From Alicyclobacillus sp. (GTDB lineage Bacteria; Bacillota; Bacilli; Alicyclobacillales; Alicyclobacillaceae), in assembly GCA_023511295.1 (NCBI GenBank), contig JAIMBT010000012.1, positions 53,815-117,814 of the forward strand: DNA of 64,000 bases. Reading direction: 5' to 3'. Below are positions 27,443 to 61,015 of the stretch, piece by piece. The translations under genes and the position numbers were made by a program. The notes under the pieces were generated by a model that was given only the letters and a program-made list of their open reading frames with translations, made no database searches and was not told where the DNA came from. Each line of letters opens with the position of its first letter. Positions within the stretch are counted from its first letter, which is position 1.

Positions 27443-27613
27443 ATGGCGTCCGGTAGTGACCTGCGGGGTAAGTCGCTGCTCACGAATCGAGAGCGGGAAG
27501 TCTTTGAGCTGCTTGTACAGGACAAGACGACGAAGGAGATTGCGAAACAGCTATTCGTGAGCGAGAAGACCGTTCGCAATCACATCTCTAATGTAATGTG
27601 TTCAGTTGTGTAA
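27443..27613 (+). pseudogene. gerE: gerE 5' part, interrupted at codon 51 by the ICE
   Basis: First 51 codons of the LuxR-type spore regulator GerE (MASGSDLRGKSLLTNREREV, then FELLVQDKTTKEIAKQLF), including the recognition helix SEKTVRNHISNV. After the att core the frame enters element DNA and stops after five foreign residues (MCSVV). The missing last helix forms the dimer interface in B. subtilis GerE, so this 56-residue product is probably inactive. AAGGAGGG precedes the ATG. Identity is secured by the near-identical sequence to B. subtilis GerE as I remember it and by the sdhB / marR / racE neighbourhood. The rest is at 60,938-61,015. Confidence 0.95.
27583..27594 (+). repeat. left attachment core (attL)
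   Basis: CATCTCTAATGT, shared with 60928-60939. The left flank continues gerE (GCAATCA), the right flank is element DNA (AATGTGTTCAG). Confidence 0.92.
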
Positions 27614-28062
27614 AATCCCACTCAGTTCATATTAACAGTCTGAGCCTAAACAGTGCGGGCTTAGCTGGATAATTTGTTATGGTGGGGCAGCAGAACACGG
27701 CATCCACCGTTTTACAGACAGGCAGGACGATGGAATTACACGGCTCAGATGAGACGCTGGGAGACATGAGAGGATAAGCCGCAAAGGTGTATGTGGATAT
27801 CCAATGTGCGACCATATTCTGGAAATCTGGGACACCCGTGTGCTCGACCCAGCGGGTCCTCCCACGCCATCCGAACAATCTGTCCGTCATGTCACACGAG
27901 AATAACTACGGATGGGCTAGCATGAGGGAGAAAACGGAAGATCATAGAGAGAGGAGTGCGCAATACGACGCGCGCTGTCCCGATCGTCTTACAAAGACGT
28001 ATTTGGTAAATTTCAGAGTCGCTATCTCTTCCTTCAACTCCGCCGCTTCCGGGCTGGTGCCT
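27614..28062. other. no supported gene beside attL
   Basis: About 450 bp next to attL with only short frames lacking good ribosome sites. A minus-strand frame (27627-27890) may be a decayed gene, but I cannot name it. This stretch would form one arm of attP. Confidence 0.5.
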
Positions 28063-28692
28063 CTATGGCCCTTGTTGAGTAATTCCATCTCCGTCAAGCT
28101 GATCTGACTTCCAATTTGGATCGTTAGTGTTGACCTGTCCAACAGTGGTCGTGGTTTTGATGTGTGCCCCGTTCAACGCTAAGTAGTCATCCAAGAAGTA
28201 TTGTTTCGTCCCGATCACATACGTCTGAACGTTTTTACTAGTTCGCTCGATTCGTGCGAACATATTCGGATGCTTTTTCAGGTACGCATTCCACTGCGTA
28301 GCTGTAACAGTTGTGGCATCCGTTGTGCCGGGATAAACAATCAAGAATTGATCCTTAGTGTCGCTTGCAGGCGCAGTCAGCACATTCCCATTCAACTTTG
28401 CAGTGGGGTGAGCGATGCTGTTAGCATCCAGATTCAACTTAACTGCGAAGTTGTCCACATACAGTGCGCCAGTCGGAACCTTGTCATAGTGTCCAGGCTT
28501 AAACGGTTTTGGCGCTCCAGCAGACATCACCGAGTATAAGCGCGATGCTTCTGCCGTTGAACCAGAAAGTGAAGTCTGAACACTAGGTGGAAGGCTTTTG
28601 ACCCAAAACGGACTAAGAACCCAAACCAAGAAAATCAGTATCAAAAATACCAATATAAGTGGGAGTCTCCTTAGTACGAAAATGCCAATCAC
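28063..28692 (-). CDS. membrane-anchored protein with QWNA motif domain (paralogue 1)
   Basis: About 209 residues. N-terminal anchor (LPLILVFLILIFLVWVLSPFW), then a soluble exported domain. Residues near 130 read VTATQWNAYLKKHPNMFARI, closely matching VTPAQWNAFVKQHPDYVRAV in the next minus-strand gene, so the two share a domain. I do not recognise it. The start is uncertain: GTG at 28692 has AGGA too close, while an in-frame TTG after CTAAGGAG about 40 nt downstream is possible. Both genes point toward attL. Confidence 0.6.
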   Translation of the reverse strand: MIGIFVLRRLPLILVFLILIFLVWVLSPFWVKSLPPSVQTSLSGSTAEASRLYSVMSAGAPKPFKPGHYDKVPTGALYVDNFAVKLNLDANSIAHPTAKLNGNVLTAPASDTKDQFLIVYPGTTDATTVTATQWNAYLKKHPNMFARIERTSKNVQTYVIGTKQYFLDDYLALNGAHIKTTTTVGQVNTNDPNWKSDQLDGDGITQQGP

Positions 28693-28780
28693 TCCTATCT
28701 ATCGTCTGCTCATAGTGGTGCGCAAGTCATTTGATATCGCCCGTTACAATACTCCATCACACTACCACTCTACCAGTGAG

Positions 28781-29500
28781 TTATTGCGCGTTCGAGAACT
28801 GCTTCCCGTCAGGGAATGTGAAAATCTCATTCGGAGCGACCAGAGCATAAGAGTTTCCATCATGGAAAATCTTCCACCCTTGTCCTTCGTGCGCCTTCAC
28901 ATCAGCCTCAAACGTACCGTATGTGACTGCATAATCAGTCGTTGCAGGTTCATCTTGAGTCACAACAAAGTATTGATTTTGCTGTTGTGCAGCCGTTCCT
29001 GGATTCGTCAGGTTCGGCGCAGACGCGACATAGACAGGTACTCCATTTTGAGACGTTACCGCTCGAACGTAATCAGGATGTTGCTTCACAAAAGCGTTCC
29101 ACTGCGCCGGAGTAACCCTTTCGGATTGATCCGTTGGTGTATTGATGAAACACGTTGCGTTTGCGGGCGCAACCGCATTGGAACCGCCAGAGTAAACAAC
29201 CTCCTTCTTGACTTGCTGGACTTTCTGGACCTTCTGGACGTGCTGTACTGGCTTTGAAACTTCTTGAGTCTTACTTCCCCCGACATCTGAACTGGACTTC
29301 TTTTGAGTCGTGACAGGCGTGGTGTTGGCAGTGTCATTACCTTTACCAAGCGCTTCAACGCTTAACGCAATCGCCGTACCCAGGTTCTTGCCTGCAACGG
29401 TAAGAGTCGATTGCGCCAACTCCGTTTGAGTTGGGTAAAACTTGTATGCACCTAACACCAAAACGGCAATCACGGCCACGAAAATCAAGAACTTTCTCAC
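28781..29500 (-). CDS. membrane-anchored protein with QWNA motif domain (paralogue 2)
   Basis: About 239 residues. Signal anchor (FLIFVAVIAVLVLGAYKF), a Lys/Val/Gln-rich stalk (HVQKVQKVQQVKKEV, about 90-105), then the same VTxxQWNAxxKxHP module as the neighbour and a C-terminal beta-rich part (GWKIFHDGNSYALVAPNEIF). GTG at 29500 lies 6 nt after AGGTGG; GTG at 29515 is possible. Likely displayed at the outer membrane face. It may act in mating, entry exclusion or as cargo; none can be shown. Confidence 0.65.
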   Translation of the reverse strand: MRKFLIFVAVIAVLVLGAYKFYPTQTELAQSTLTVAGKNLGTAIALSVEALGKGNDTANTTPVTTQKKSSSDVGGSKTQEVSKPVQHVQKVQKVQQVKKEVVYSGGSNAVAPANATCFINTPTDQSERVTPAQWNAFVKQHPDYVRAVTSQNGVPVYVASAPNLTNPGTAAQQQNQYFVVTQDEPATTDYAVTYGTFEADVKAHEGQGWKIFHDGNSYALVAPNEIFTFPDGKQFSNAQ

Positions 29501-29650
29501 CAGCGGCCACCTCACTCCGACATTTTCTGTAGAAGTCGTGATGTGTTTATTGTCGGAAATTTACGCCTGTATTGTATCCGATGTAGGCGATCCGCGCCAC
29601 TGTCTATGAAAACATATGTTCTGGATTTATATTTTATCCAACCCGTGCTA

Positions 29651-30562: not shown

Positions 30563-31471
30563 ATGGGTGATATGGTGGTGCAGTTTCGCGGCACCATCTA
30601 CGAAAGAGGGTACGGCACGATTGCCCAAAAAGTGATGCGGGACAAGACATTACATCCTTATGCGAAAGTCATATATGCATATCTCGTGTCGTTTGCCGGA
30701 CAAGACGGAAGCGCATTTCCGAGCGTCAACTTGATGATGCGCGAACTTGGGATAAAAAGCGAAGATACCTTTTACAAGTACAGAAAGCAACTTACCGATG
30801 CCGGATACATCACCATCGAAAAAGGCAATCCCGATGGCGGAAAGTTCCAAAACAACATCTACGTCATCGAAACCACAGTTAAACCGTACCCTAACTCGTC
30901 GAGTACGGCCAAATCGAGCACGACGAAATTGAGCACCACCAAATCGACCTCGATGAAATCCGGCACTACAACGAACAGTGCTTTACAAGTATCAATAGAT
31001 CACAATAATCAAGCTATCAACAACGAACAAGAGTCGGTTGTTGTCGAGAACGTACGTGAATCGATAGAGTCTATTTTGGGTGTCGGTGTTAAGACGCTAA
31101 CAGATCTACCCAAGTGGATCGACACATACGGTACCGATTATTTGGTACAAAAAGCCACGATAATCGCCAACGATCCGCCAAAAGGTGGTTGGAGAAATGT
31201 GGTAGGGGCTTATCGATCTGCTGTGCTGGGTAACTGGAGCGAAACAAGCAGCACTGCACAGTTGGATGAAGGTGGGAAAGCATCCCCATCTCATTACGAC
31301 TTCCGCTACCACAACTACTACATGGCTTGCGAAAGAGAGCAGTACTTGCTCTATTGTCAGAGCCATCCGCAGTATGTCGAACAGTTGGTTGCACAGTATG
31401 GGAGCCGAGCGCTGCAAGATATACCAGGGATGATCTCAGGAGGTGATGATGATGTGGCGTTATGGTCTTAG
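30563..31471 (+). CDS. HTH_36-type DNA-binding protein, possible replication initiator
   Basis: 302 residues. The N-terminal winged helix LHPYAKVIYAYLVSFAGQDG followed by SAFPSVNLMMRELGIKSEDT is the HTH_36 module found in RepA_N/DnaD-like replication proteins and phage regulators. A Ser/Thr/Lys linker (about 115-140) leads to a C-terminal helical domain. GAGGTGATGCT ribosome site. TGTATTAC repeats about 300 nt after its end would suit an initiator that binds iterons. Many ICEs replicate as circles after excision; I infer such a role. Confidence 0.65.
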   Translation: MGDMVVQFRGTIYERGYGTIAQKVMRDKTLHPYAKVIYAYLVSFAGQDGSAFPSVNLMMRELGIKSEDTFYKYRKQLTDAGYITIEKGNPDGGKFQNNIYVIETTVKPYPNSSSTAKSSTTKLSTTKSTSMKSGTTTNSALQVSIDHNNQAINNEQESVVVENVRESIESILGVGVKTLTDLPKWIDTYGTDYLVQKATIIANDPPKGGWRNVVGAYRSAVLGNWSETSSTAQLDEGGKASPSHYDFRYHNYYMACEREQYLLYCQSHPQYVEQLVAQYGSRALQDIPGMISGGDDDVALWS

Positions 31472-33050: not shown

Positions 33051-34440
33051 GTTATCTCCTCCTATCCGGTGGTGTGTACAGCTGTTTGGTGGTCAGTAGT
33101 GTGAACACCAAGCGTACCAGTTTTCTTGCAGTTAGGACGAGTGCTCTTTTGTGTTTGTGCTTCAACGCTTCACTATATTTCTTGCGGTAGAACTCGGCAT
33201 ACTCAGAGTCATGCTGCCGTACCTTGTCCGCAGCCTGAATCAAGTAGTAGCGCAGATACCTGTTGCCGGTGCGCATTCGGCTTGTCTCTTCGGACTCGTA
33301 GTCTCCGGACTGGTACTGGCTCCACACGAGGCCTGCGTACTTTGCCAAAGCGCTGTGGTTCCTGAAGCACCCAATGTCGCCGATCTCAGCGATGATGCCA
33401 GCGGCGTAGACCGGACCGATGCCATTGACAGTTTCGAGCGTATTGGGGATTGCCCGCATGAGTTTGGCAATGGCCTTGTCGAGTCGTTTTACTTCAGACT
33501 CCATGTGCTGGATCACACTGAGAGTGACGGACAACGAGAGGTTCACCGGGTCTTTCATGACCTTGTCCAGACGGAACGAGTTGCGGGCCAGCTTTTGCAG
33601 TTCCCGAGCTGTCTCCTCTGGGTCATCGAAGCGGTTCCTGCCCTTTTCGACCAGGAAAGCGACGAGGTCTTCCAGGGGCATGGAGGCAATCTGCTCCGGC
33701 TCGAGTTCCTGAATCACCGCCAACGAAGTAGTGCCGAACGTGTTGGAGAACGGGCTGTCCTGACGCAGGCCGCTGAATTTGAGGAACAGCTGATTCAGGA
33801 AAAACGTCTTGTCCCGAGTAATCGTCTGAACAAGATGAAAGCGAGTCCGGGTCAGCCTTTGCAATGCTTCGTATTGGGCAGTATCTGTCATGGCTTGTGG
33901 AAGTCGGCCAAACCGCAGATGGTCTGCAATCACCCAGGCGTCGATGCGGTCGTTCTTGGGAAGGGTGTCGTACCCTTTCTTGAAACGAGCCACTCTCCGT
34001 GCGTTCAAGACGTGTATCTGGGCTTGGAGGTCTGGCTCATATGCTTCGAGTTCGTTCTTCAGGTAATGCGCCAGATGCCATCCGAGGTTGGAGGTAGCCT
34101 CCATCCCCAAGACGACAGCATCCATTTGTCTGGCCTGTGTGGTTTCCAACACCTTGCGAATGAGCGTGTCAGCGCCCGGCTGGTCATTGGAAACCTTGAA
34201 AGAGTCCAAGCCTTGTCCGACCTCATCCATGAATTGAACATGGTGAGAGTCTAAGCTCACGTCGATCCCAACGTGCAGTTTGGACATTCGATTCACCTCC
34301 ATTCAGGAGTAGAGTCAAGCCAGTCCCGGACCTGGGTGCCCGTGGGAAACCACCGACTACAGCCTCGTCATCAGCACTCATCCATGAAGAGGTCAATTAC
34401 GGGTCACTACACCCCCTCAACCATGGAGGCGCAACAAGCG
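33045..34440 (-). mobile_element. IS110-family insertion sequence (ends approximate)
   Basis: One transposase gene on the minus strand with about 150 nt upstream that may encode the guide (bridge/seek) RNA used by this family. IS110 elements have no clear inverted repeats, so the ends cannot be read from one copy; the coordinates are estimates. Confidence 0.7.
33052..34287 (-). CDS. IS110-family transposase (DEDD)
   Basis: 411 residues. N-terminal RuvC-like DEDD domain: LHVGIDVSLDSHHVQF, VVLGMEATSNLGWHLAHYL, PKNDRIDAWVIADHLRFG. C-terminal Transposase_20 domain with VNGIGPVYAAGIIAEIGD and YAGLVWSQYQSGDYESEET, where the conserved serine acts as nucleophile. GGAGGTGA precedes ATG at 34287. The frame is intact, so the IS may be active. 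Target choice in this family is directed by the element's own non-coding RNA. Confidence 0.93.
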   Translation of the reverse strand: MSKLHVGIDVSLDSHHVQFMDEVGQGLDSFKVSNDQPGADTLIRKVLETTQARQMDAVVLGMEATSNLGWHLAHYLKNELEAYEPDLQAQIHVLNARRVARFKKGYDTLPKNDRIDAWVIADHLRFGRLPQAMTDTAQYEALQRLTRTRFHLVQTITRDKTFFLNQLFLKFSGLRQDSPFSNTFGTTSLAVIQELEPEQIASMPLEDLVAFLVEKGRNRFDDPEETARELQKLARNSFRLDKVMKDPVNLSLSVTLSVIQHMESEVKRLDKAIAKLMRAIPNTLETVNGIGPVYAAGIIAEIGDIGCFRNHSALAKYAGLVWSQYQSGDYESEETSRMRTGNRYLRYYLIQAADKVRQHDSEYAEFYRKKYSEALKHKHKRALVLTARKLVRLVFTLLTTKQLYTPPDRRR

Positions 34441-34876
34441 GTTAGAACATGAGTGGTGGATCCTGGGTATCAGGCTTATCACAGCAGTACCAAGTGGTCC
34501 GCAAGGAGGAACAGAAATCTCCCGAGAAAGACTTGCTGACCCCATTGTCCCACAGGCAAGCCCAGGCAGGAACAGGTTCACATCCGTTGGCGTTGGGGCA
34601 TCCCCCAACCAGATGTGGCAAATATGCGGTTGTCAAGGAACGAGCGCATGACAAAGAACCGGAGAAGCGGTCAATCCGACTCCAAGCAAGTACACATACA
34701 GTTGAATCGATACCGACAGCGGCTTGACGGGGGCTCCCCCATCCGGGGTGAAACGGGCAGTGCAAAGGGCATTACTGGTTGGATGAGGGAGCCCCATCAA
34801 CCGTCGCCATCCTTCTGAGCAGCTGTCTCATTCGGATGGCCTTGCAAGAGCCGGCTCTGGAAATTCTTCAGCGTCG
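34441..34876. other. stretch without a supported gene
   Basis: A plus-strand frame (34449-34727, MSGGSWVSGLSQQYQVVRKE...) has no good ribosome site. GGGGCTCCC near 34730 pairs with GGGAGCCCC near 34790 in an imperfect hairpin. Could be IS flank or decayed DNA. Confidence 0.4.
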
Positions 34877-34902
34877 TTCCAGTTGGCCCGGGCCAACTGG
34901 AA
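34877..34902. repeat. 26-bp perfect palindrome
   Basis: Arms TTCCAGTTGGCCC and complement meet with no spacer. CTGGAAATTC occurs at its right edge and again about 40 nt to the left. Possible protein-binding site or single-strand fold. Confidence 0.7.
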
Positions 34903-34964
34903 ATTCAACGACAAAGAACTTCAACTACTATGATACGAGGAGTTTGAGAGTTAGGGACAAAAAC

Positions 34965-35067
34965 GATACCACGGCTTGTCCTTTACCGGGCAAGGCCCGC
35001 TCCTTATCCTCCCTCGCTGCGCTCAGTCCGGTATCGCTCTTCGCCTTGCCCTCGGGCTACGCCGTGG
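34965..35067. promoter_or_regulatory. nested hairpin region upstream of ardC
   Basis: CCACGGC (34969-34975) pairs with GCCGTGG (35061-35067), enclosing GGGCAAGGC (34988-34996) with GCCTTGCCC (35043-35051); GATACC/GGTATC also fits as an alternative pair. It lies 60 nt before the ardC start. In other plasmids such folds upstream of leading-region genes act as promoters on single-stranded DNA; that role here is inference. Confidence 0.5.
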
Positions 35068-35126
35068 ATGAGATCGGGGTAAGCCCCTCACCACAGGGGG
35101 TGACACCCGAACCGGAGGCGAACAGG

Positions 35127-35967
35127 ATGGACAAGGTACAAGTGTTGGTTGACAAGCTGGAGCAGGGCGTATTGGCAGTATATAGCGGTGACAAGTGGCG
35201 AGAAGTACTGGAGGTCCAATCGCGCTTTCACAATTACAGTTTTAGCAACGTGATGTTGATTTTGATGCAGTGCCCGCACGCCTCACATGTCGCAGGGTTC
35301 AACACTTGGAAACAGCTTGGACGGCATGTTGTGAGGGGCGAAAAAGCAATTCAGATTCTTGCTCCTATGATTTGCAAGAAGGTAGAAATCAATGAAGATG
35401 GAGCGGAAGTGGAAAAGTCGAGCCTTTATGGATTTCGTGTGGTTAATGTATTTGATGTCAGCCAAACGGCTGGTAAGGAACTCCCAAGGCTGACAACCGA
35501 GCTCGACGGGAATAGTACGATGGCCACAAGAATTGATTGAAGCTCTCATAAATGTGATTCAGATTCCAGTCGAGTTTGACGACATCGCGGGCGGCGCAAA
35601 AGGGTACTATTCGCCCGGCGAACACCGGATCGCAATCAAAGCGGGAATGGCAGCCGACCAAACGGCCAAGACGTTGGTCCATGAGTTCACGCACAGCCTG
35701 TTACACAACGTGGATTCGGACAACAAGGGCAAGACACGAGGGCAAATCGAGGCGGAGGCGGAGGCGGAGGGCACAGCATTCGTGGTCGCCAGTTACTTCG
35801 GACTGGATACCAGTAACTATAGTTTCGGGTACGTTGCAGGATGGGCGTCCCAAGATGGTGGGACTGAACTTGTACGATCCATCGGTACCACGATCCAGCG
35901 CACCGCGCACCAAGTCATCGCAGCGTTAGAGGCATACCTACACCCGGATTCTAAGGCCAGCGCTTGA
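35127..35967 (+). pseudogene. ardC: ArdC-like antirestriction protein, frameshifted
   Basis: The first frame (35127-35540) has the ArdC N-terminal ssDNA-binding domain (LEQGVLAVYSGDKWREVLEV, then SFSNVMLILMQCPHASHVAG). The second frame (from about 35521 to 35967) has the metallopeptidase-like half with zinc motif TLVHEFTHSLLHN. They join near 35520, where TMATRID* in one frame gives way to RWPQELIEALINV in the other, so one base is missing or two are extra. GGAGG precedes ATG at 35127. Known ArdC proteins protect incoming conjugative DNA. It may be a true pseudogene, a sequencing error, or recoded. Confidence 0.8.
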
Positions 35968-36241: not shown

Positions 36242-36643
36242 ATGGCAACACAAACTGACACCCGCGTACAAATTAGGGTGCGCATGGACTCGGATGCACT
36301 GGCCTTACTCGATGCCGAGTCAGAGCGCCGCAAGATTAGCCGTGATCAACTTATTCGAGAGGCTGTTGACACTCACCTGTCGGTAGATGTGCTGCATCGA
36401 TATACACCACTTTTGCGTGATGCATTTGATGGAATCCTACAAAGGCATGTTGACCGTCTGTCCAAGCTGTCAGCCAAAGGTGCGCGGTCAGCAGAGGCAA
36501 CGTTTTATTTAGTCACCGAAATGATGCAAATGTTGGACGGGATCAATGTCGAGGATGCGACTTACGAGGCCCGCAAAAAGGCTGCCGCATATGTTCGATC
36601 TCCACTTACAGATGAAATAGGTGAGTATGATGCCGACAATTAA
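36242..36643 (+). CDS. ribbon-helix-helix relaxosome accessory protein
   Basis: 133 residues. N-terminal RHH/CopG fold VQIRVRMDSDALALLDAESE then RRKISRDQLIREAVDTHL; C-terminal helical part. It stands immediately before the relaxase, as PcfF/MobC-type proteins do, and probably binds the oriT repeats and recruits the relaxase. AAGGAGGTGATTGGAGG ribosome site. Overlaps the relaxase start by about 16 nt. Confidence 0.78.
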   Translation: MATQTDTRVQIRVRMDSDALALLDAESERRKISRDQLIREAVDTHLSVDVLHRYTPLLRDAFDGILQRHVDRLSKLSAKGARSAEATFYLVTEMMQMLDGINVEDATYEARKKAAAYVRSPLTDEIGEYDADN

Positions 36644-37862
36644 CAAGCCCTTTGTCTTGCGTATTCGGCACGGACGATCTCGCGAAGCGAACGTCGCCCA
36701 TGCTAAATACATCGCAACGCGTGAGGGGGTGGATTTGGAAACAGAAATGAAGTCGTTTGACACTGACCAGGACCTTTCGATCCACGCGCAGTATATGGAC
36801 GAGCGTCCGCGCTCTGAGGGACTCTTCGGACCAGACCCGCATGCACCTCCAGATTTAGACGCGGTGAAATCCATCATGCGCCATCACGATGGTCATGTGT
36901 GGCAGGGAGTATTTTCCCTTGCCGAAGAGGACGCTGTGACACTCGGTTACGGCGATGGGCAACAATGGCGCGATCTCACAAGACGGTCACTGGCACGGTT
37001 AGCCGAGGAGGGCATGGGCCTACGCCCCGGTGAGTATCACTGGGTAGCCGCACACCACCGCGAGCCAGGACATCCACACGTACACTTTTTGATGTGGCAG
37101 GATGACGCCGCGCCAAGGCGTCGAGCGATGTTGAGCAAAGATGAATTACGCAAAGCTCGGCAAGCTGTGAGCAAAGAAGTCTATGGTCCTCTGAGAACTC
37201 AGATAACTATGGAAAAAACCATCATGAGGGATTTGATTGTTGCGGAAGCAAGGGACACTATCCGCCCATCTGAAAAGACGGCGGATCGGGTAGAGCAAAC
37301 GCTTGAAAAAGCGGAAAGAGAATTGGTAGCAACCGGACGGCTAGAAAAGGATGTGCTTGCTCCGACAAGCTGGCCTGCAATTGATGTGGCAGAACTAAAT
37401 GATAAGTTAACCGCGCTCTCGCAAAAAATGCCCGGTAAAGGCAGGGCGGCACTGGCATTCATGCCCGAGGAAGTTAAAAGAGAAGCAAGAGACATTGCCG
37501 ACTGGGTTTTATCTCGTCCCTCACTCGCTAAAGTGCGGCACCAATGGGAGCAATCAGTTGACGATCTTACATCCTTGTACTCTTCACAACCAAAGCGACT
37601 ACAAGAGGCGCGAGAGAAAGCCTATGCAGACCTGCGGGATCGTGTTGCACAGTCGGTAATACAACGGGCCGGGGATATGGATCGAACGGCCAAACTTGGT
37701 CAACTGCATGTCCGCCAAAACGTCAAATCCGTGTTTCAATCGGCCTTCCAAGCAATACAGGGGGAACACCTAAAAGCCCAGGCGCAGGCCGAAGTCGCAA
37801 AACGAAGAGCGGTTCAGCAAAGTGCCGCAGAACAAAGAAGGGACAACGAGAGGGGGTGGTGA
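36627..37862 (+). CDS. conjugative relaxase, MOBP/MobL type
   Basis: Nicks oriT and pilots the strand into the recipient. About 411 residues. The HUH metal site is HHREPGHPHVHFLMW (about residue 140). An N-terminal Tyr in HAKYIATREGVDLE is the likely nicking residue. The remainder is helical with coiled-coil character. Starts considered: GTG 36621, ATG 36627, ATG 36630, behind AGGTGAG. It overlaps the coupling-protein gene by 7 nt. The presence of the HUH motif plus a TATCCTG oriT supports MOBP. Confidence 0.85.
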   Translation: MMPTINKPFVLRIRHGRSREANVAHAKYIATREGVDLETEMKSFDTDQDLSIHAQYMDERPRSEGLFGPDPHAPPDLDAVKSIMRHHDGHVWQGVFSLAEEDAVTLGYGDGQQWRDLTRRSLARLAEEGMGLRPGEYHWVAAHHREPGHPHVHFLMWQDDAAPRRRAMLSKDELRKARQAVSKEVYGPLRTQITMEKTIMRDLIVAEARDTIRPSEKTADRVEQTLEKAERELVATGRLEKDVLAPTSWPAIDVAELNDKLTALSQKMPGKGRAALAFMPEEVKREARDIADWVLSRPSLAKVRHQWEQSVDDLTSLYSSQPKRLQEAREKAYADLRDRVAQSVIQRAGDMDRTAKLGQLHVRQNVKSVFQSAFQAIQGEHLKAQAQAEVAKRRAVQQSAAEQRRDNERGW

Positions 37863-39718
37863 CGACGAAACAAAATATGTTCCGATGGGCGATAAGGGCA
37901 GTCCTGTGGGCTGTCCTCTTAGTCGTAGATTTTCGCATTTTGCCAGCACTTGGGCATCTGCACGGGTACATCAGGATTGCGGACCCTAACCTTTTTGCTA
38001 ACTACTGGCTGCTGGCCCTATCGGGCCATTGGTCTTGGCATCCGCAATGGCACAGTCAATCATGGTGGATCATGCAGGGGGTCATGATTCTTTTGGCCAC
38101 CGCTGTCTACTGGGGTACCCGAGGTGGTTTGGCCGCAAGACTTAGTAAATTGAGCACCGCTGCCGCAGCGACGCATGGGTCGGCACGGTGGAGAACGAGG
38201 AGAGAATGGGGACGAACCCTTGATAAGCAATTGATGGATACGCCGACGGCGGCGGGGATCGTGGTCGGATCGGGGGCGGGAACCACGTGGACAACCAAGC
38301 CTGCATGGGGTAATCCGCACGTCTTAGTAATTGGCGCTACGCGGTCGGGTAAATCGCGGCGAGTAATTTTGCCGTCCATTTGGGCTATCGGTCATGCCGG
38401 AGAATCCATGGTTCTCACCGATCCCAAAGGAGAGTTACACACAATGACGGCAGCGTGGTTACGACAGCAGGGATATGAGGTTATCCAGATCAACCTTCTC
38501 CATCCCACCGCGGCTAATCGTTGGAACCCATTTACAGCCATAGAACAGGCGCGGGAGCAAGGGGACACAGAAGAAGCTGTTCGTCTGGCATGGGAGCTAG
38601 CAGATGTTATCGTGAGCGACAACGGTCAAACCGATCCCATTTGGCCTCAAGCGGAGCAGTCGTTAATCTCAGCACTTTCGTTAGGGGTTGTGTGGGAAGC
38701 ATCACAGGCGGCTAAACATCCTGCAACCGCATATCGCATTTTAACCGAACTTGGACAAGATGGCGGAGAGCAACTGGACGCATGGTTTCGTTCGCTACCA
38801 TCCGATCACCCAGCGCGGCTCGCTTATGGAACGGCCGCACTCTCAGAAAGCCGTACCCGATCATCTATATATACCGGTACAGCGGCCCATATGCGCTTGT
38901 ATGCGGATACTGGAATCGCAGCGATGACATCCATCAGCGACCATGATCCGGCGAGTGTCGGAGTCAAACCGACAGCAGTCTTTCTTCTGTTGCCAGATGA
39001 AGCCGCGTCTCGAAGAACCATTGCAAGCCTATACATCACGCAGCTTTATTCAGCACTCACCACGGTTGCAAGGGACTGCGGTGGAACTTTACCTACACCA
39101 GTTTGGTTCGTTGCAGACGAATTTGCGAACATGGGGAAAATTCCCGACATGTCAGGGAAAATGACTGTCAGCGCTGGGCGCGGCATCCGATGGTTATTAG
39201 CGATTCAAAGTCTGTCTCAAATTGAGCAAGTCTATGGTAGACAAGCGGCGGAGACCATAACAGGCAACTGTGATACATGGCTTTACCTTCGCACTGCCGA
39301 CCCGCAGACGGCAAAAGTCATTAGCGCCAAAGCTGGACAGTACACAGTGCGCACATATTCGCAGTCCCAACAATCTCGCCAACCTAGCGTTTTAGGGCTG
39401 TCCGAATCCGTAACCGGACGGCCCTTAATCATGCCCGACGAGGTATTGAGATGGCCGCAGGGCCAGTCATTATTGCTTCAAAGCGGAGAGTACGCGGCCC
39501 AGTTACCACTCGCTGATTTATCCGAGTGGCCGCTGGCGTCCAAAGCGTTTGACGCACGACAGGCGTTCAGCGGGCAGAGGGGAGTGAGTACTGCGCACGT
39601 GGAGACGTGGGTGCCGGATACTACGCAACCCGCAGTATCCTCTACTGACAAAATCAAAAAGACCAACGCCTCGCGATTGTTTGGCAAGGGCAACAAGTCG
39701 AAATCACAGGAGGATTGA
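37856..39718 (+). CDS. type IV coupling protein (VirD4/TraG-like)
   Basis: Membrane ATPase linking the relaxosome to the mating pore. 620 residues. Two N-terminal spans (WAIRAVLWAVLLVVDFRIL; IMQGVMILLATAVYWG), Walker A VIGATRSGKSRRV, Walker B SMVLTDPKGELHTM, and the family stretch TPVWFVADEFANMGKIPDMS. GTG at 37856 overlaps the relaxase stop, implying coupling. Intact. Confidence 0.92.
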   Translation: MVTTKQNMFRWAIRAVLWAVLLVVDFRILPALGHLHGYIRIADPNLFANYWLLALSGHWSWHPQWHSQSWWIMQGVMILLATAVYWGTRGGLAARLSKLSTAAAATHGSARWRTRREWGRTLDKQLMDTPTAAGIVVGSGAGTTWTTKPAWGNPHVLVIGATRSGKSRRVILPSIWAIGHAGESMVLTDPKGELHTMTAAWLRQQGYEVIQINLLHPTAANRWNPFTAIEQAREQGDTEEAVRLAWELADVIVSDNGQTDPIWPQAEQSLISALSLGVVWEASQAAKHPATAYRILTELGQDGGEQLDAWFRSLPSDHPARLAYGTAALSESRTRSSIYTGTAAHMRLYADTGIAAMTSISDHDPASVGVKPTAVFLLLPDEAASRRTIASLYITQLYSALTTVARDCGGTLPTPVWFVADEFANMGKIPDMSGKMTVSAGRGIRWLLAIQSLSQIEQVYGRQAAETITGNCDTWLYLRTADPQTAKVISAKAGQYTVRTYSQSQQSRQPSVLGLSESVTGRPLIMPDEVLRWPQGQSLLLQSGEYAAQLPLADLSEWPLASKAFDARQAFSGQRGVSTAHVETWVPDTTQPAVSSTDKIKKTNASRLFGKGNKSKSQED

Positions 39719-39722
39719 TAGC

Positions 39723-40962: not shown

Positions 40963-40977
40963 TTGGAGGTGATGCTT

Positions 40978-41268: not shown

Positions 41269-41275
41269 GAGGTGC

Positions 41276-41884: not shown

Positions 41885-41899
41885 GGAGGTGATGAAACC

Positions 41900-47466: not shown

Positions 47467-47479
47467 AGGGGGTGTTAGA

Positions 47480-48622: not shown

Positions 48623-48626
48623 TCAC

Positions 48627-51094: not shown

Positions 51095-52363
51095 ATGAAA
51101 ACTGTCAGGATAACGGAATTTGCTAGACTCAGAGAAGCTGCAGGGCTATCTATCCGTGAGACAGCCGAGTTTCTTGGTGTCAGCGAGCGTACAGTGTATC
51201 GATGGGACAATGGAGAAACAGAACCGGACGTTTCTAGGCTGACCGAAATGCGCATTATGGCCGGTGTACCTTATCAACGCCAACAAAATGGACAGGCTCT
51301 TTTTCGATTCATCGACTTGTTCGCGGGGATTGGGGGCTTGCGCCGAGGATTTGAAGCTATTGGTGGTCAATGTGTTTTTACAAGTGAGTGGGACGATGCT
51401 TGCAGGAAAACCTACCAAGCAAACTTCGTATGCGATCACGCGGTGGTTGGAGACATCCGTGAAGTGGACGTAGATCAGGACATCCCGGAATACGACGTGC
51501 TTTTGGCAGGTTTTCCTTGCCAGCCCTTTTCGATTTCTGGCGTAAGCAAGAGAAACTCACTCGGTATGCCTCACGGTTTTCATTGTGACACACAGGGAAC
51601 GCTGTTTTTTGATGTAGCGCGTATCATCGAACATACGCGACCAAAGGCTTTCCTGCTTGAAAACGTGAAGAACCTCACGAGCCATGACAAAGGTCGTACG
51701 TTCCAAATAATTATGCGTACGTTGGAGGATGAACTTGGATACAAGGTTAAATACATGGTCATTGACGGACGCGGTTGGGTACCACAGCACAGGGAGCGTA
51801 TCTACATTGTCGGTTTCCGGGGGGATGTAGGTTTCTCATTCGAAAACTTTAAGGCGAAGCCGGCTGATGAGGGGCCACGATTGAGCAGTATCCTTCATCC
51901 GGAGGACGGGTCAGAACCCGCTGAAGAACCATATACTTACGGAGACTTGGGGAAGGTAGCAGACAAGTATACCCTGAGCGATAAACTTTGGAACTACCTG
52001 CAAGCATACGCAGAGAAACACCGCGCCAAAGGGAATGGCTTTGGGTACGGGTTGTTCGGCCCGGACGACGTCGCTCGCACACTGTCTGCCCGTTATTACA
52101 AGGACGGATCTGAGATATTGATTGCACAGGAAGGCAAGAACCCGCGCCGTCTGACACCTCGTGAGTGTGCAAGACTAATGGGGTTTGACATGCCTGGAAG
52201 GGAACCGATGCGCATTCCTGTTTCCGATACGCAAGCGTACAAGCAGTTCGGAAACTCGGTTGTCGTTCCGGTTGTTGAGGCCGTTGCGAGACATATGCTT
52301 CCTGGCATCCTGAAATCCATGAGGCAGCCGGAAATCAATGAGCAGATAGCCCTGCCGGTCTGA
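51095..52363 (+). CDS. C5-cytosine DNA methyltransferase, EcoRII/Dcm-SsoII type
   Basis: 422 residues. An XRE HTH (LREAAGLSIRETAEFLGVSE, 11-30) precedes the methylase. Motif I FIDLFAGIGGLRRGF, motif IV AGFPCQPFSISG (catalytic Cys), motif VI FLLENVKNL, motif VIII PQHRERIYIVGF, motif X YKQFGNSVVVPVV. The fused HTH is typical of M.SsoII relatives that repress their own operon. With the EcoRII-type nuclease next door, the target is probably CCWGG or CCNGG (inner C methylated). First gene of the operon. Confidence 0.93.
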   Translation: MKTVRITEFARLREAAGLSIRETAEFLGVSERTVYRWDNGETEPDVSRLTEMRIMAGVPYQRQQNGQALFRFIDLFAGIGGLRRGFEAIGGQCVFTSEWDDACRKTYQANFVCDHAVVGDIREVDVDQDIPEYDVLLAGFPCQPFSISGVSKRNSLGMPHGFHCDTQGTLFFDVARIIEHTRPKAFLLENVKNLTSHDKGRTFQIIMRTLEDELGYKVKYMVIDGRGWVPQHRERIYIVGFRGDVGFSFENFKAKPADEGPRLSSILHPEDGSEPAEEPYTYGDLGKVADKYTLSDKLWNYLQAYAEKHRAKGNGFGYGLFGPDDVARTLSARYYKDGSEILIAQEGKNPRRLTPRECARLMGFDMPGREPMRIPVSDTQAYKQFGNSVVVPVVEAVARHMLPGILKSMRQPEINEQIALPV

Positions 52364-52368
52364 TTGCC

Positions 52369-52839
52369 ATGACGGACATAGTTTCACCTGACGACAGAAG
52401 CTGGATGATGGCAGGTATCCGCAGCAAGAATACGAAACCCGAACTGATAATTCGTTCTGGGTTACACAAATTGGGGTTTCGCTACCATGTAAACTATCTT
52501 AAGCTGCCCGGCAAGCCGGATCTGGTATTTCCCCGCTACCAGGCAGTGATTTTCATTCACGGATGTTTCTGGCATAAACACGGCTGCCATCTCTTCCGCT
52601 GGCCAACTACCAGAGCGGATTTTTGGAAAGTGAAACTAACCGGCAACGTAGAACGGGACCGAAGAGCGACTGAAGCACTCCTTTCTAGCGGTTGGCGAGT
52701 ACTGGTTGTATGGGAATGCGCGCTTAAAGGTAAAACCAGATTGCCGATCGGCGAAGTTATAGAACGCTGTGGTGTATGGATCCGATCAGACGACAAGTAC
52801 AACGAAATACAAGGTGAGGAGTTGGGTAACAGTGACTGA
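52369..52839 (+). CDS. vsr: very short patch repair endonuclease
   Basis: 156 residues. Nicks T:G mismatches left by deamination of 5-methylcytosine in the methylase site. Visible core: IRSKNTKPELIIRSGLHKLG, KLPGKPDLVFPRYQAVIFIH (catalytic Asp) and GCFWHKHGCHLFRWPTTR (zinc Cys/His and Phe/Trp wedge). It begins 5 nt after the methylase stop and overlaps the endonuclease start by 8 nt. Confidence 0.95.
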   Translation: MTDIVSPDDRSWMMAGIRSKNTKPELIIRSGLHKLGFRYHVNYLKLPGKPDLVFPRYQAVIFIHGCFWHKHGCHLFRWPTTRADFWKVKLTGNVERDRRATEALLSSGWRVLVVWECALKGKTRLPIGEVIERCGVWIRSDDKYNEIQGEELGNSD

Positions 52840-54061
52840 TGTCCGCGCAGGCTTTTTGTCACAGTATTTTGACGGAGTCGTTATGAAGCGTCTTAGCGCT
52901 GTCGAAGCGGACATCAATAAATCCCATCAACATGAATTCAACGGAACCGTGCCATTGCAAAAGCTGTTAGGGCGTGAAAAGTTGTCTAACTACCCGGCAC
53001 GGTTTCTTTGGCTTGGGGGAGAGAACGAAGGCATTACCGATGAATCAACAGTCACATGGTACGATGCGCGCGAAAACCACCCTACCCGTACGGAGTACCG
53101 CCTATATTTTAGAGATAATCCTGTAATGGGCATGGCTTCAGAGAACGACCTGCTGATTGTTGCAAAACGACCGGATGGAGAACTGTACTTTCTTGTGGTT
53201 CCTGCTGGAAGTACCGTCGAACAGCAACTGTTGTGGTTGTTTGATGCTCCGGAACATCTTGGACTGACATTTCAGCATCGGGCATTTGGAGGTGAACACG
53301 ATGTAGAAGTTGATTTTGTTGTACGGTTCATTCTCGAGGAACTGGGGATCGAGGTCCAGGACTCGGATGTCGGATTCTTGGACAGCCACCTCGAACCATA
53401 TATGCAGCAAGGGATTTTCCCAACCACGAAGGAGTTTTCTGAGTTGACGAGGCGGATTGCTCGTGGGATATCTGCTGCTGACGACCCGGATACTGCTTTG
53501 ATGGAATGGATGGATCTTGAGGAGCGGTTGTTCAAGCGTCTGGAGCGTTACCTCATTGCTGCCCGTATCGAACGCGGGTTTACCGAGGGCAGTGAAATTG
53601 ATGTTGATGGTTTCATTAAATTCTCCCTAAGTGTCCACAACCGGCGCAAGTCCCGCGTAGGTTACGCTCTTGAGAATCATCTCGAAGAGGTGTTTAAAGC
53701 GAACAGAGTTCGATATTCCCGCACTGCGGTGACGGAGAACAAATCCAAACCTGACTTTCTGTTTCCGGGAATTGGTGAATATAGGAACAACACCTTTCCG
53801 CCCAATCGACTAACGATGCTGGGAGTTAAGTCAACGTGCAAGGACCGGTGGAGGCAGGTACTTGCGGAAGCTGCCCGAATCAAGGAAAAACATTTGTTAA
53901 CATTGGAACCAGGAATAAGCGAAAACCAGACCAATGAAATGCAGACAAACTCGCTACAGCTCGTTCTTCCTCGAAGATTGCACGACACCTACAAGCCGTC
54001 CCAGCAATTGTGGCTGATGAACGTACAAGAGTTTGTAGACTTAGTGAAAGCACGCCAATAG
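52832..54061 (+). CDS. type II restriction endonuclease, EcoRII family
   Basis: 409 residues, near the 404 of EcoRII as I recall it. An N-terminal effector-binding domain is followed by an EcoRII-C catalytic domain: YALENHLEEVFKANRVRYSR, KPDFLFPGIGEYRNN, MLGVKSTCKDRWRQVLAEAA (K-x-T/S-C-K-D-R-W signature). EcoRII-type enzymes need two sites, one as effector. GTG at 52832 overlaps vsr by 8 nt. The full methylase-Vsr-nuclease set looks intact, so it would stabilise the element by post-segregational killing. Confidence 0.92.
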   Translation: MTDVRAGFLSQYFDGVVMKRLSAVEADINKSHQHEFNGTVPLQKLLGREKLSNYPARFLWLGGENEGITDESTVTWYDARENHPTRTEYRLYFRDNPVMGMASENDLLIVAKRPDGELYFLVVPAGSTVEQQLLWLFDAPEHLGLTFQHRAFGGEHDVEVDFVVRFILEELGIEVQDSDVGFLDSHLEPYMQQGIFPTTKEFSELTRRIARGISAADDPDTALMEWMDLEERLFKRLERYLIAARIERGFTEGSEIDVDGFIKFSLSVHNRRKSRVGYALENHLEEVFKANRVRYSRTAVTENKSKPDFLFPGIGEYRNNTFPPNRLTMLGVKSTCKDRWRQVLAEAARIKEKHLLTLEPGISENQTNEMQTNSLQLVLPRRLHDTYKPSQQLWLMNVQEFVDLVKARQ

Positions 54062-56217: not shown

Positions 56218-57006
56218 ATGGAGGAAAATCACAGATTGGCGCTCGTTATCGCGTTTTATTTGTCTAAGCACGACACGCTGGCAGTAAAACATTTGGGGTA
56301 TAACAGCTTTACTCAAGCATTCAATGAAATTGGCAAGCGCCTAGATGTTAAACCAAATACAATAAAAAATATGCGGGATGAATTCGATCCCTTTCATTTC
56401 AATAGAAGGAAGGGATGGTATCAGCGCGAACTGCGACCCAGCCGACTAATGGTACTTGAAAAATGTCAGGACCTGAGTGAAGAAGCACTTCGAGAGATAG
56501 TGAAGGCTATTATTCAGAACCACTCAAATGACACACAGGCCAAAGTGGACCCGCGGACCTTCTACATGGATCTTTTTGATTTTAGCGCTGCGGAAGATGA
56601 CGACAGTAAGAACGACGACAAATTCGTTGGCGCGCGTGGAATAACAGGGGTTAAGGCTGAGAAATTGTTTATAGAATGCTATAACATGGGTGAATTTCCC
56701 CAGTTCTCTGGCTCTCTGGTTGACAGGCGTCATGATGCTTGCGGCTATGATTTTGAATCCACTGCCGTGCCTAAATATGTTTTTGAGGTCAAAGGATTAT
56801 CAAATGATAGAGGCAATGTTACCTTTACCGACAAGGAGTGGAGCATGGCCAAGGACTTAAGGGAACACTACATTCTAATCGTTGTGAGTGGCCTTGAAAC
56901 GCAACCTCAAATTTCTGTAATCCCCGACCCATATTCCCGGCTATCCGCCCGAATGCATACTTACACGACGATCGCAGTAAATTGGTCCATAAGCTGGCCA
57001 CAATAA
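56218..57006 (+). CDS. DUF3883/NOV-C-like nuclease-domain protein
   Basis: 262 residues. C-terminal half: DRRHDACGYDFEST, KYVFEVKGLSND and VTFTDKEWSMAKDLREHYIL resemble the DUF3883 (protein NO VEIN C-terminal) restriction-like fold, with G-x-D and E-V-K as core residues. The N-terminal part contains an HTH-like segment (YNSFTQAFNEIGKRLDVKPN). AAGGGGACTTAAAAA ribosome site. DUF3883 modules are common in McrBC/Mrr-like defence loci. Confidence 0.68.
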   Translation: MEENHRLALVIAFYLSKHDTLAVKHLGYNSFTQAFNEIGKRLDVKPNTIKNMRDEFDPFHFNRRKGWYQRELRPSRLMVLEKCQDLSEEALREIVKAIIQNHSNDTQAKVDPRTFYMDLFDFSAAEDDDSKNDDKFVGARGITGVKAEKLFIECYNMGEFPQFSGSLVDRRHDACGYDFESTAVPKYVFEVKGLSNDRGNVTFTDKEWSMAKDLREHYILIVVSGLETQPQISVIPDPYSRLSARMHTYTTIAVNWSISWPQ

Positions 57007-58837: not shown

Positions 58838-58986
58838 TATAATAAACGCAAGAAGTCAGGGGGAATGAGCGTCCCATCGGAGAGAATCCGCAGCGACGCC
58901 GCAAGAAGTTAGGGGAGTTTTGGTTTCCCGCCACAATGGCGGGAAACCCCTAATTTCCATTGCGGCGTTCGGCTGCGGATTTTTTG
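58838..58986 (+). ncRNA. orphan structured RNA with own promoter and terminator
   Basis: TATAAT at 58838-58843 (weak -35) starts a transcript of about 135 nt. From 58885 it folds as one long nested stem: AATCCGCAGC with GCTGCGGATT, ACGCCGCAA with TTGCGGCGT, TTAGGGG with CCCCTAA, and TTTCCCGCCA-CAA-TGGCGGGAAA, ending in T5-6. A near repeat, CGCAAGAAGTCAGGGG (58847) and CGCAAGAAGTTAGGGG (58900), precedes and enters the fold. It could be a small regulatory RNA or a transcription attenuator for the genes that follow, including the integrase. Confidence 0.65.
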
Positions 58987-59004
58987 TGCCGGGGAGTGTA
59001 AGCA

Positions 59005-59256
59005 TTGCACCAGCAGGGTAAACGTAGTCAGGCCATACTGCATACAGATGTCGTATCTGGCAGCACGAGGAGTGGTGTCGCTACGACTACCTCAAACGAC
59101 GATTCCCAGTACGTCATGCTGGATGAACAAACGCTACCCGACGGGACCAAGATGAAGTTCTACGCCCACAAAACTGACGCCCCAACGCTTGACGAAATAT
59201 TGGAAGACATTTATGACCTGGCGTCCGAAGCACTTATACGAAAGCTGTCCAAGTAA
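59005..59256 (+). CDS. small protein upstream of the integrase
   Basis: 83 residues. TTG start after GGGGAGTG. A polar, low-complexity head leads to YVMLDEQTLPDGTKMKFYAH and an acidic helix (LDEILEDIYDLASEALIRKL). No family recognised. It lies 70 nt before the integrase and after the structured RNA, a usual place for a recombination directionality factor, which is only a hypothesis. Confidence 0.55.
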   Translation: MHQQGKRSQAILHTDVVSGSTRSGVATTTSNDDSQYVMLDEQTLPDGTKMKFYAHKTDAPTLDEILEDIYDLASEALIRKLSK

Positions 59257-59326
59257 GTTGAGTCATGTGTTTACGCACGGCCGTCCGATTTGGTATCCTA
59301 GCCTTTGACGAGGCGAGGTGAGGGTA

Positions 59327-60892
59327 TTGAGTCGGGCGGCTATTTATGTTCGCGTCAGTACAGACCAAGATGCACAGAAATATAGCCCCGAACACCAACT
59401 CGCAGCGTGTCGTGAGTATGCGGAAGCTGAAGGGCTGATCACGGACGACACGCTGGTCTATAATGATGCCGGATTGTCTGGTACGGAAATGGAGAACCGT
59501 CGCGAAGTTAAACGTCTGTTGAGTGACGCCCGTTTGGGCAAGTTTGATGCAGTACTATTCACAGCGGTAAGCCGCTTTGGACGTGATATGGCAGACGTGT
59601 TTTCTATGAAGAAGAAACTGGAATCCGTTTACGGAATCAGAATTGTGAGCATTGAGGAAGGATACGATTCGGCGGTCGAAGGACGTAACAATGATATGGT
59701 GTTTACTGTTCACGCGATGCTTGCGGCTCATAAATCCAAAGAGATGTCGATAGCGATTAAACGTGGTCTGCGGCAAGCGGCAAAGAACGGTCGCCACATC
59801 GGCAACGTAGTCCCATACGGATACGCCAAGAACGGGAACAAGCAACTAACGCCCAATCCAACAGAAGCCATTATCATTAAAGACATATTCCAGATGTACC
59901 TTGATGGGAACGGGTCGAAGGCAATCGCTGAGCAACTTAATCGTCGTGGAGTTCCAACAGCGACGAAAGCACGTAAAGGGAAACATACACTGTGGCAAGC
60001 GTCCACGATTAACGCGATCCTTCATAATGAAGCATATATCGGAAGGCTGATCGCCCATCGTTGGCAAATAGCAACGAATTTCGAGGTTTCGCGTAAGGCT
60101 GATTCAGCAATCAAGCGTCAATCGCTACGTGATGAGGACGAATGGATCGTGATTGACGGTGCACATGAAGCAATTATCGACGTGGAGACTTTCAACCGCG
60201 TGCAAGACCTAATGGATAAGAAGTCACGTAACAAGGGGATCAAGCGTACGTCAAATCTTCTTGCCGGACTCATGACATGTAAGAACTGTGGCGGCTCGAT
60301 GATTGTAAGCGGACGTGGTAGAGGTGATGGCAACAGGACCGTCTACAAATACATCGTTTGTGCCAAAACCAGACGAATCGGTAAGTACGCTTGTCAGAAC
60401 CACCATACGGTCAAATACGAGTACGTACTTAATGGGATACTTGCATCGTTGAGGTCGCTGGCACAGTCGAAGCGAGACTTTGATGGCATAGCTAAAGCCA
60501 TTTTGGAGACAGTTTCGTCTGGTCAACAGGAACAGCAGGTGCGGATTGAAGCGTTGAAGCGTCAACTGAACGAGAACCAAAACCAACAGATGAAGAACTT
60601 AGAAGCGTTCAGTTCAGGTTTGTTTACGCGTGAACTGGTCGAACAGCGTCAAAGGAGCCTGATGCAGGAAGCAGAACGTCTTAATAAGGAAATTGTGCGT
60701 CTGGAAGCATCATCACAACTCCAACAGAACGCGACCAACAAGTTAGACGAAATTCGGGAGTCGTTGAATATCTTCAAGAACCTGGATGAATATGACGAAA
60801 TGACTCAAAAGATAGCAATACGTAAGCTTATTGACCGAATCGAGTTTGACAGCGAGGGGAACGTTGAAGTTCGTTATTCTTGGCTCGCTTGA
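59327..60892 (+). CDS. int: large serine recombinase (ICE integrase)
   Basis: Integrates and, with a helper, excises the element. 521 residues. Resolvase domain with catalytic Ser in AAIYVRVSTDQDAQKYSPEH and FTAVSRFGRDMADVF; recombinase domain (YGYAKNGNKQLTPNPTEAII; GVPTATKARKGKHTLWQAST); zinc ribbon CKNCGGSMIVSGRG and CAKTRRIGKYACQNH; coiled coil about 400-490. TTG at 59327 lies after GAGGTGAGG; GTG at 59318 is possible. Same protein class as SpoIVCA (skin) and SprA (SPbeta), the sporulation excisionases. The stop is 35 nt from attR. Confidence 0.95.
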   Translation: MSRAAIYVRVSTDQDAQKYSPEHQLAACREYAEAEGLITDDTLVYNDAGLSGTEMENRREVKRLLSDARLGKFDAVLFTAVSRFGRDMADVFSMKKKLESVYGIRIVSIEEGYDSAVEGRNNDMVFTVHAMLAAHKSKEMSIAIKRGLRQAAKNGRHIGNVVPYGYAKNGNKQLTPNPTEAIIIKDIFQMYLDGNGSKAIAEQLNRRGVPTATKARKGKHTLWQASTINAILHNEAYIGRLIAHRWQIATNFEVSRKADSAIKRQSLRDEDEWIVIDGAHEAIIDVETFNRVQDLMDKKSRNKGIKRTSNLLAGLMTCKNCGGSMIVSGRGRGDGNRTVYKYIVCAKTRRIGKYACQNHHTVKYEYVLNGILASLRSLAQSKRDFDGIAKAILETVSSGQQEQQVRIEALKRQLNENQNQQMKNLEAFSSGLFTRELVEQRQRSLMQEAERLNKEIVRLEASSQLQQNATNKLDEIRESLNIFKNLDEYDEMTQKIAIRKLIDRIEFDSEGNVEVRYSWLA

Positions 60893-60927
60893 TGGAGTCA
60901 CGCAGGTGTTTATTACACTTTTAAACG

Positions 60928-60939
60928 CATCTCTAATGT
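60928..60939 (+). repeat. right attachment core (attR)
   Basis: CATCTCTAATGT; gerE codons resume directly to its right (CATGAAGAAGCTC). Confidence 0.92.
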
Positions 60940-61015
60940 CATGAAGAAGCTCAACGTGAAAGGGCGCTCGCAAGCGGTTGTCGAGCTTGTTCGCCTCGGA
61001 GAATTGACCATCTGA
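60938..61015 (+). pseudogene. gerE: gerE 3' part
   Basis: Codons 51 to 75 of gerE: (V)MKKLNVKGRSQAVVELVRLG then ELTI and a stop. It contains the turn and last helix of the HTH domain and dimer interface. Joining 27594 to 60940 restores GT-C (Val51) and an unbroken 75-codon frame. It has no start of its own. Confidence 0.95.

Follow-up and report, generated by a model that had tools for sequence, protein, structure and literature searches.

A conjugation-type element splits gerE of an Alicyclobacillus strain at the insertion site of gin and shares its backbone with an element in sigK

The window analysed here, a stretch of 64,000 nt from Alicyclobacillus sp. (assembly GCA_023511295.1, contig JAIMBT010000012.1), contains the sporulation regulator gene gerE in two parts, which together with the element between them occupy positions 27443-61015. 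In the reading of the window gerE starts with an ATG at 27443 and its 3' part ends with the TGA at 61013-61015. The locus is defined by the following features, including a predicted recombination directionality factor (RDF):

27362..27389, + strand: sigma-K-like promoter of gerE, AC, 17 nt, CATACTATA, -10 at 27381 (resemblance to the sigma-K consensus)
27443..27594, + strand: 5' part of gerE, codons 1 to 51, core included (sequence)
27583..27594, + strand: attL core CATCTCTAATGT, putative crossover AA at 27590-27591
59005..59256, + strand: predicted RDF, 83 aa, TTG start (conserved beside the recombinase)
59318..60892, + strand: large serine recombinase, 524 aa, directly before attR (domain match)
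60928..60939, + strand: attR core CATCTCTAATGT, putative crossover AA at 60935-60936
60928..61015, + strand: 3' part of gerE, core to TGA (sequence)

The 12-bp core CATCTCTAATGT is present at both joints and no further copy was detected on either strand of the window. Between equivalent codons of gerE lie 33,345 bp, the length of the element, and joining the flanks in silico yields a GerE of 75 residues, to which the nearest intact GerE proteins of relatives are 97% identical. The split described in the initial annotation (a 33.3-kb element, the 12-bp core at both joints and a restored GerE of 75 residues) was confirmed by the sequence. Without excision the 5' frame runs on into the element and encodes 56 residues, 52 of which belong to GerE, and the last 23 residues of GerE are lost. 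In the numbering of the 75-residue protein the core extends from the end of codon 47 to codon 51, and the presumed crossover dinucleotide AA corresponds to bases 1-2 of codon 50. The reconstructed attP of the window contains an inverted repeat with its best centre on this AA (15/25 pairs; 13/25 at best in the attB of the window), which taken alone is modest evidence. The element differs from its flanks in G+C content (0.511 vs. 0.623). Downstream of gerE follow open reading frames (ORFs) labelled by eye as MarR-like, glutamate racemase, RdgB-like and YfcE-like, which we take to be a gerE-type neighbourhood.

The host assembly comprises 3.43 Mb in 42 contigs and is 99.6% complete. A second intact gerE, which according to the initial annotation would speak against a developmental switch, was searched for in this genome and not found: the GerE search gave a single match at E 1e-15 or better and a single right half. 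Five other PF00196 matches lie within ORFs of 224-294 aa, two of which share 47% identity with GerE among the matches listed. Furthermore, two spore_sigmaK loci exceeded the cut-off (C22:88083 and C24:105367), both of them uninterrupted; an insertion in sigK, as in skin, is not what the window holds, since its element is sited in gerE.

The central part of the element is predicted to encode a conjugation apparatus, i.e. a type IV secretion system (T4SS) with its relaxase:

36242..36643, + strand: ribbon-helix-helix protein adjoining the relaxase (domain match)
36621..37862, + strand: MobP3-family relaxase, Pfam MobL (profile match)
37856..39718, + strand: VirD4-like coupling protein of the CD1115 family (above the NCBIfam cut-off)
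40084..40962, + strand: TrbL/VirB6-type membrane protein (domain match)
40963..41268, + strand: PrgI/VirB3-like protein (weak match, below the Pfam cut-off)
41189..43654, + strand: VirB4 in two ORFs of the same frame, 41189-41884 and 41900-43654 (junction TGA-GGAGGTGATGAAACC-ATG)
43654..44610, + strand: SLT lytic transglycosylase, VirB1-like (domain match)

A broken VirB4 was considered and rejected, because a strong ribosome-binding site and an ATG follow the internal TGA, and one profile is covered in turn by both ORFs (NF045975, positions 106-280 in the first and 301-893 in the second). The parts by which an integrative and conjugative element (ICE) is recognised in sequence are present, namely relaxase, coupling protein, VirB4 ATPase, channel genes, integrase and att sites. 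What looked like a full transfer system in the initial annotation comes close to one: it has the relaxase, VirD4, the two-ORF VirB4, the TrbL-type protein, the lytic transglycosylase and, with a weak match, PrgI/VirB3; a VirB8-type protein was not identified among the genes of the element.

The relaxase was found in 2/59 genomes of the order, its own and that of A. cycloheptanicus (G006), in which a 95% identical protein is encoded far from gerE. There a 30.1-kb element with the backbone of the window element splits a SigK-family gene. The two backbones align over 15.1 kb at 94.5% and over 1.45 kb at 87%, and the 9 kb at window positions 39,445-48,446 are about 99.8% identical (99.4-100% per 500 bp), compared with 69% and 81% for aligned stretches of the hosts (274 bp downstream of gerE and 228 bp at the gerE 5' end, respectively). 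The joint of the sigK element is AATGA, which we take to be the core of skin, and its joined flanks give a SigK frame of 244 codons. Its recombinase is a different and distant one. The gerE of A. cycloheptanicus is split as well, by a separate element of 19.8 kb. Its rightmost 2 kb, with small ORF, recombinase and attR, is 71.5% identical to the window; otherwise the two share little, namely the gerE flanks and 169 bp at 70%. Since the backbone is shared and the recombinase is not, the window element resembles a conjugative backbone of the sigK type combined with a landing cassette (att sites, RDF and recombinase) of the gerE type. This cassette may have been exchanged against the backbone, and one conjugative lineage would by such exchange occupy two mother-cell regulators. 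In a search of plasmid records at megablast sensitivity no match to the backbone was detected.

The insertion site itself has a published precedent. According to PMC5595907, the element gin splits gerE of B. cereus ATCC10987 at CATCTCAAA and is excised at mid-sporulation by GirC together with the 42-residue GirX, which rebuilds a working gerE; its authors predict AA as crossover, mention a prophage in gerE of B. glycinifermentans and term the transfer route of gin unknown. The AA of gin (CATCTCAAA) lies at Asn49 of 74 residues and that of the window (CATCTCTAATGT) at Asn50 of 75. Since Asn49 of the B. cereus protein corresponds to Asn50 here, the insertion site is the same, and as gin excises in sporulation the principle was already known; the earlier reading is thus not unprecedented, excision data for gin having been published. 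Both elements further share a serine recombinase, a small RDF (GirX; predicted in the window), restriction-modification cargo and an excision that would rebuild GerE. In contrast, gin (28.6 kb) carries no structural conjugation genes, whereas the window element has a T4SS with a MobP3 relaxase; gin encodes three serine recombinases (girA, girB, girC) and the window element one, which is the single recombinase among its ORFs of at least 400 aa. The excision of gin has been demonstrated, whereas that of the window element is predicted.

Based on these observations we propose, with a probability of roughly three in four, that a conjugation-type element of 33.3 kb sits in gerE at the site of gin and is excised by its own recombinase and a likely RDF, most likely in the sporulating mother cell, rejoining gerE. 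The recombinase and the RDF would cut the element out at the AA of codon 50; this would take place in the mother cell, as the case of gin and the promoter motifs in sibling cassettes suggest, and the integrated copy would pass to the spores. The same recombinase and the T4SS may let the element move between cells. The timing of excision is deduced from other elements and is put forward as probable.

The splitting of gerE appears to be recurrent. Among 59 genomes of the order, 54 of which gave a GerE match at E 1e-15, gerE is broken at the same place in 15. The right half of the gene was recovered in 14 of these 15, and a related recombinase beside a gerE half likewise in 14 (in one case a 100-residue piece at a contig end), both being absent from G054. 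In a class-wide sample, 267 of 398 Bacilli genomes gave a GerE-like match, a few of them paralogues. Nearly all of the 33 genomes that were followed had been chosen for a low score, and 29 were searched for right halves and recombinases; outside the order, 27 genomes contain both halves of gerE together with a recombinase match of E 2.5e-76 or better, the parts being spread over more than one contig in four. At least 37 of the 267 sampled genomes with a GerE-like match therefore have a split gerE (the 27 and 10 of the 15 in the order), a figure that leaves out G129, G074 and family f4 with its generally weak GerE scores. For G129 the right half is only a paralogue-level match and no recombinase was found at E 1e-60, and for G074 neither a right half nor a recombinase at E 1e-60; neither was accepted as a confirmed split. 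In G045 two contigs overlap by exactly 127 bp, which was taken as an assembly break, and G071 and G098 were rejected as gerE carriers, their matches being LuxR paralogues of 46-50% identity.

That unrelated pieces were joined inside gerE by the assembly is practically negligible as an explanation, although the assembly is a draft of 42 contigs: both joints lie within one contig and share an exact 12-bp core, same-site splits occur inside long contigs of finished or near-finished genomes (G006 and G024), and gin provides the precedent. Since same-site splits recur in many genomes, the split gerE is more than chance.

Complete elements could be laid out in 34 cases (11 in the order and 23 elsewhere; 1,978 to 51,532 bp), the att register being set by counting back from codon 75 and the outer of two right halves being used in G229. 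All 34 have the AA of codon 50 in both attL and attR, and no other dinucleotide is common to all in this way; the frame joined at this AA reaches the GerE stop uninterrupted. When all centres were searched, the best inverted-repeat centre of attP fell exactly on the AA in 31/34. Taken together this suggests the AA of codon 50 as the place where the recombinase crosses over. All 34 elements have an uninterrupted recombinase ORF of at least 486 aa. For codons 51-75, the proportions of synonymous (pS) and non-synonymous (pN) differences are 0.80 and 0.06 in the 11 elements of the order and 0.84 and 0.10 in all 34, pS being near saturation. The gerE halves look constrained, and we read the intact frames and recombinases as marks of a recombination system kept for restoring the gene.

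These data bear on the view that the element is a relic, i.e. that gerE is broken for good, spore coats are poor or lacking and the recombinase served integration only. The excision in the window is a prediction, and this lineage may have acquired the insertion recently, so that the absence of decay says little for the window alone. Across the 34 split genes, however, neither a stop nor a loss of frame was found, pN is low in both halves, and CATANNNTA is retained 56-74 nt 5' of gerE in 30/34 loci (a count made without shuffle control). Furthermore, the att sites have diverged to differing degrees, which suggests insertions of different ages. A relic therefore seems very improbable.

In a quick tree the recombinases of the gerE elements form three clades, each with a value of 100 in the Shimodaira-Hasegawa-like approximate likelihood ratio test (SH-aLRT), and these group together (SH-aLRT 94), separate from six further serine recombinases encoded in these genomes. 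Two recombinases that had been labelled as non-gerE beforehand fall within the gerE clades, those of phage Lily of Paenibacillus larvae and of a Bacillus altitudinis record. In Lily the predicted attP adjoins the recombinase and holds a gerE-like core centred on AA. The B. altitudinis 'plasmid' L147 (NZ_CP124832) is a 41-kb circle that appears to be a complete phage with AimR and a gerE-type recombinase, and its junction shows, by eye, an AA-centred inverted repeat. Both look like free forms of gerE-targeting phages. The clade of the window recombinase has a sharp boundary: among 7,997 candidates scored in a search of 5.8 billion proteins, 48 sequences have at least 44% identity and the next at most 32%. 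All 11 loci (in 10 genomes) recovered by a clade-profile search of named genomes lie at a split gerE. A scan of genome contigs with a single recombinase as query had confirmed nothing, whereas the profile scan succeeded; a scan of viral contigs confirmed no relative, and the best of the matches listed among phage and plasmid records was about 30% identical.

In the smallest element, that of A. mengziensis (1,978 bp; chromosome NZ_CP071182), a small ORF and a recombinase are all that was recognised. Fourteen cassettes of the order, that of the window among them, have a complete or almost complete recombinase, and in 13 of these a homologue of the small ORF lies next to it; the A. tolerans element has a weaker candidate. 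The small protein is therefore predicted to be the RDF. In 9/13 cassettes the motif CATA[CT]NNT, which we take to be the -10 element of a mother-cell sigma factor, occurs within 200 bases 5' of the conserved core of the RDF, compared with 1.06 in shuffles, none of which reached 9 in 300 trials; since the motif was chosen after viewing the same regions, five -10 patterns and three with a -35 element had been tried and the 13 cassettes are related, this figure overstates the evidence and the motif is suggestive only.

A hairpin precedes the RDF gene in the window:

58845..58995, + strand: very stable hairpin followed by a T run (TTTTTT), just 5' of the predicted RDF gene (-81.8 kcal/mol, z -8.9)

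No RNA family was detected by an Rfam search 5' of the RDF gene up to E 0.1. The sigK element of A. cycloheptanicus contains a counterpart, at 89%, of the 75-bp segment 58841-58915; an ORF next to this counterpart resembles by eye an XRE-type repressor.

Besides the VirB8-type protein that was not identified, several observations weigh against the proposed explanation. The window, its nearest relative G006 and G022 have no CATA[CT]NNT motif before the RDF gene and G061 only the looser form CATANNNT. A complete sigma-E promoter with -35 element was found in 0/13 cassettes, a sigma-K-like pair in 4/13 and CATANNNTA in 2/13. A candidate mother-cell promoter for the RDF gene of the window (59041) was rejected, as it lies inside the RDF ORF and 63/500 shuffles were as good, and the hairpin that precedes this gene resembles a strong terminator. 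The role of the RDF is deduced from position and conservation. The grouping of the gerE recombinases is that of a quick tree at SH-aLRT 94. Concerning the crossover, offset 15 is likewise identical in 34/34 and three other positions in 32, so that the assignment to AA leans also on the palindrome centre, which misses AA in G061, G278 and G107. Finally, the profile match flagged one stop in the recombinase stretch of G352, whose ORF still has 516 codons. Since the window lacks the motif of its siblings, sporulation control is deduced from its kin and not from its own DNA. The interpretation of the initial annotation is partly supported, namely as regards a skin-like gene-intervening element with its own large serine recombinase, a restorable GerE, no spare gerE found and a conjugation-type gene set; that the element leaves in the mother cell, and that the host keeps the insertion because this cell is terminal, is its hypothesis.

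The same observations could be explained by a plain conjugative element that occupies a gene not used in growing cells, excises vegetatively for transfer, is not controlled by sporulation and mends gerE only by a chance exit. The T4SS and the relaxase, the RDF gene without a mother-cell motif and the recent transfer of the backbone, as indicated by 9 kb of near identity in another genus, would fit such a scenario. However, RDF and recombinase are retained in related cassettes, some as small as 2 kb, in which no transfer genes were recognised, most sibling RDF genes are preceded by the mother-cell motif, and gin and phi3T excise in sporulation according to PMC5595907 and PMC6957869. Taking this into account, it seems unlikely that the element is of this plain type. 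Among the 34 genomes a PF02534 (VirD4) match lies within the gerE element in the window and in 0/33 others, other kinds of coupling protein not having been sought. Searches for the main genes of the window element in the other 33 elements at E 1e-5 gave a weak VirB4 match (G076), methylase/Vsr matches (G187 and G330) and nothing else.

Excision in the mother cell thus remains the preferred reading, and the skin-like interpretation is probably correct, gin being its published precedent at this site. Skin in sigK of B. subtilis and the sigK prophage of Alicyclobacillus phage MMB025 also split a mother-cell regulator and have their own recombinase, the core of skin being five nucleotides; they are a phage remnant and a phage, respectively, whereas the target in the window is gerE and the backbone is conjugative (PMC13141910). 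PMC6957869 describes the recombination units of SPbeta (in spsM) and phi3T (in kamA) as exchangeable between backbones, and an engineered ICEBs1-SPbeta chimera that integrated into spsM after conjugation. Site-specific units swap between backbones there as they may have done in the window element; those cases are phages or laboratory-built, whereas the window points to a natural exchange between sigK and gerE in a conjugative element. The matches listed in searches of the open-licence literature of PubMed Central (PMC) include gin, SPbeta/phi3T, yin in yabG, skin of C. difficile, MMB025 and, in a Bacillus cereus biovar, an insertion in sigK. Among the matches listed (including PMC5595907, PMC6957869, PMC13141910, PMC10747680 and PMC9713406) we found neither a conjugative element in gerE or sigK nor a class-wide count of gerE splits. 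The elements found described in sporulation genes are phages, phage remnants or gin; new are the conjugative backbone, with a near-complete gene set in gerE, its twin in sigK, the minimal cassette of two genes and the breadth of gerE splitting.

On balance, though with less assurance than for the excision of the window element, we favour a wider reading in which a conjugative lineage lives in mother-cell regulators and swaps only its landing cassette, with gerE as its seat in one genus and sigK in a second. The terminal mother cell would be a costless haven, because excision mends the dying copy of the gene while the spore keeps the element; the gerE cassette would so be retained down to a 2-kb 'intron-like' remnant, and gerE splitting would be recurrent in Bacilli. 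If this is true, the same transfer backbone switches its mother-cell target genes by a swap of the landing cassette alone. Whether conjugation is the route and a developmental safe haven the reason becomes directly testable in thermoacidophiles, and the gerE elements, which range in size between 52 and 2 kb, open the question which genes a host cannot lose once a developmental gene has been split.

The remaining genes of the window element comprise defence-related and other cargo:

28063..29515, - strand: two ORFs without Pfam match, 28063-28692 and 28781-29515 (Pfam)
30563..31471, + strand: HTH_36 protein (domain match)
33052..34302, - strand: IS110-family transposase (domain match)
34779..35540, + strand: ArdC-N (anti-restriction) protein (domain match)
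47414..49533, + strand: Mrr_cat nuclease, 47414-48622, and NERD protein, 48718-49533 (domain matches)
51095..54061, + strand: C5 cytosine methylase (51095), Vsr (52369) and EcoRII-C restriction enzyme (52769), restriction-modification cargo
56218..57006, + strand: NOV_C-domain protein (domain match)

The HTH_36 protein may be a replication initiator, judging by its size and domain. A cREC_REC protein is encoded as well, listed with the NOV_C protein before the hairpin. The Bacillus-plasmid RNA of Rfam (RF01691) gave a match at 35000-35036 on the - strand, with a score exactly at the gathering threshold.

Among the split loci elsewhere, two right halves of gerE each were detected in L100-L101 (G229) and L125 (G153), which suggests tandem elements at gerE. 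In the metagenome-assembled genome JA2.bin28 the contigs with the left half (L068) and the right half (L069) each carry an RDF-recombinase pair, which may mean that one element holds two cassettes or that elements lie in tandem. In the genus of G198, a full-length GerE was found in 25/26 genomes and a partial match only in G418; G331 has an intact and a partial copy and G307 two full-length copies. The small gerE elements L071, L053 and L054 (3.6-4.4 kb) appear by eye to carry cargo of a metabolic type, namely an Lrp with an aminotransferase, an AsnB-like protein and a membrane protein.

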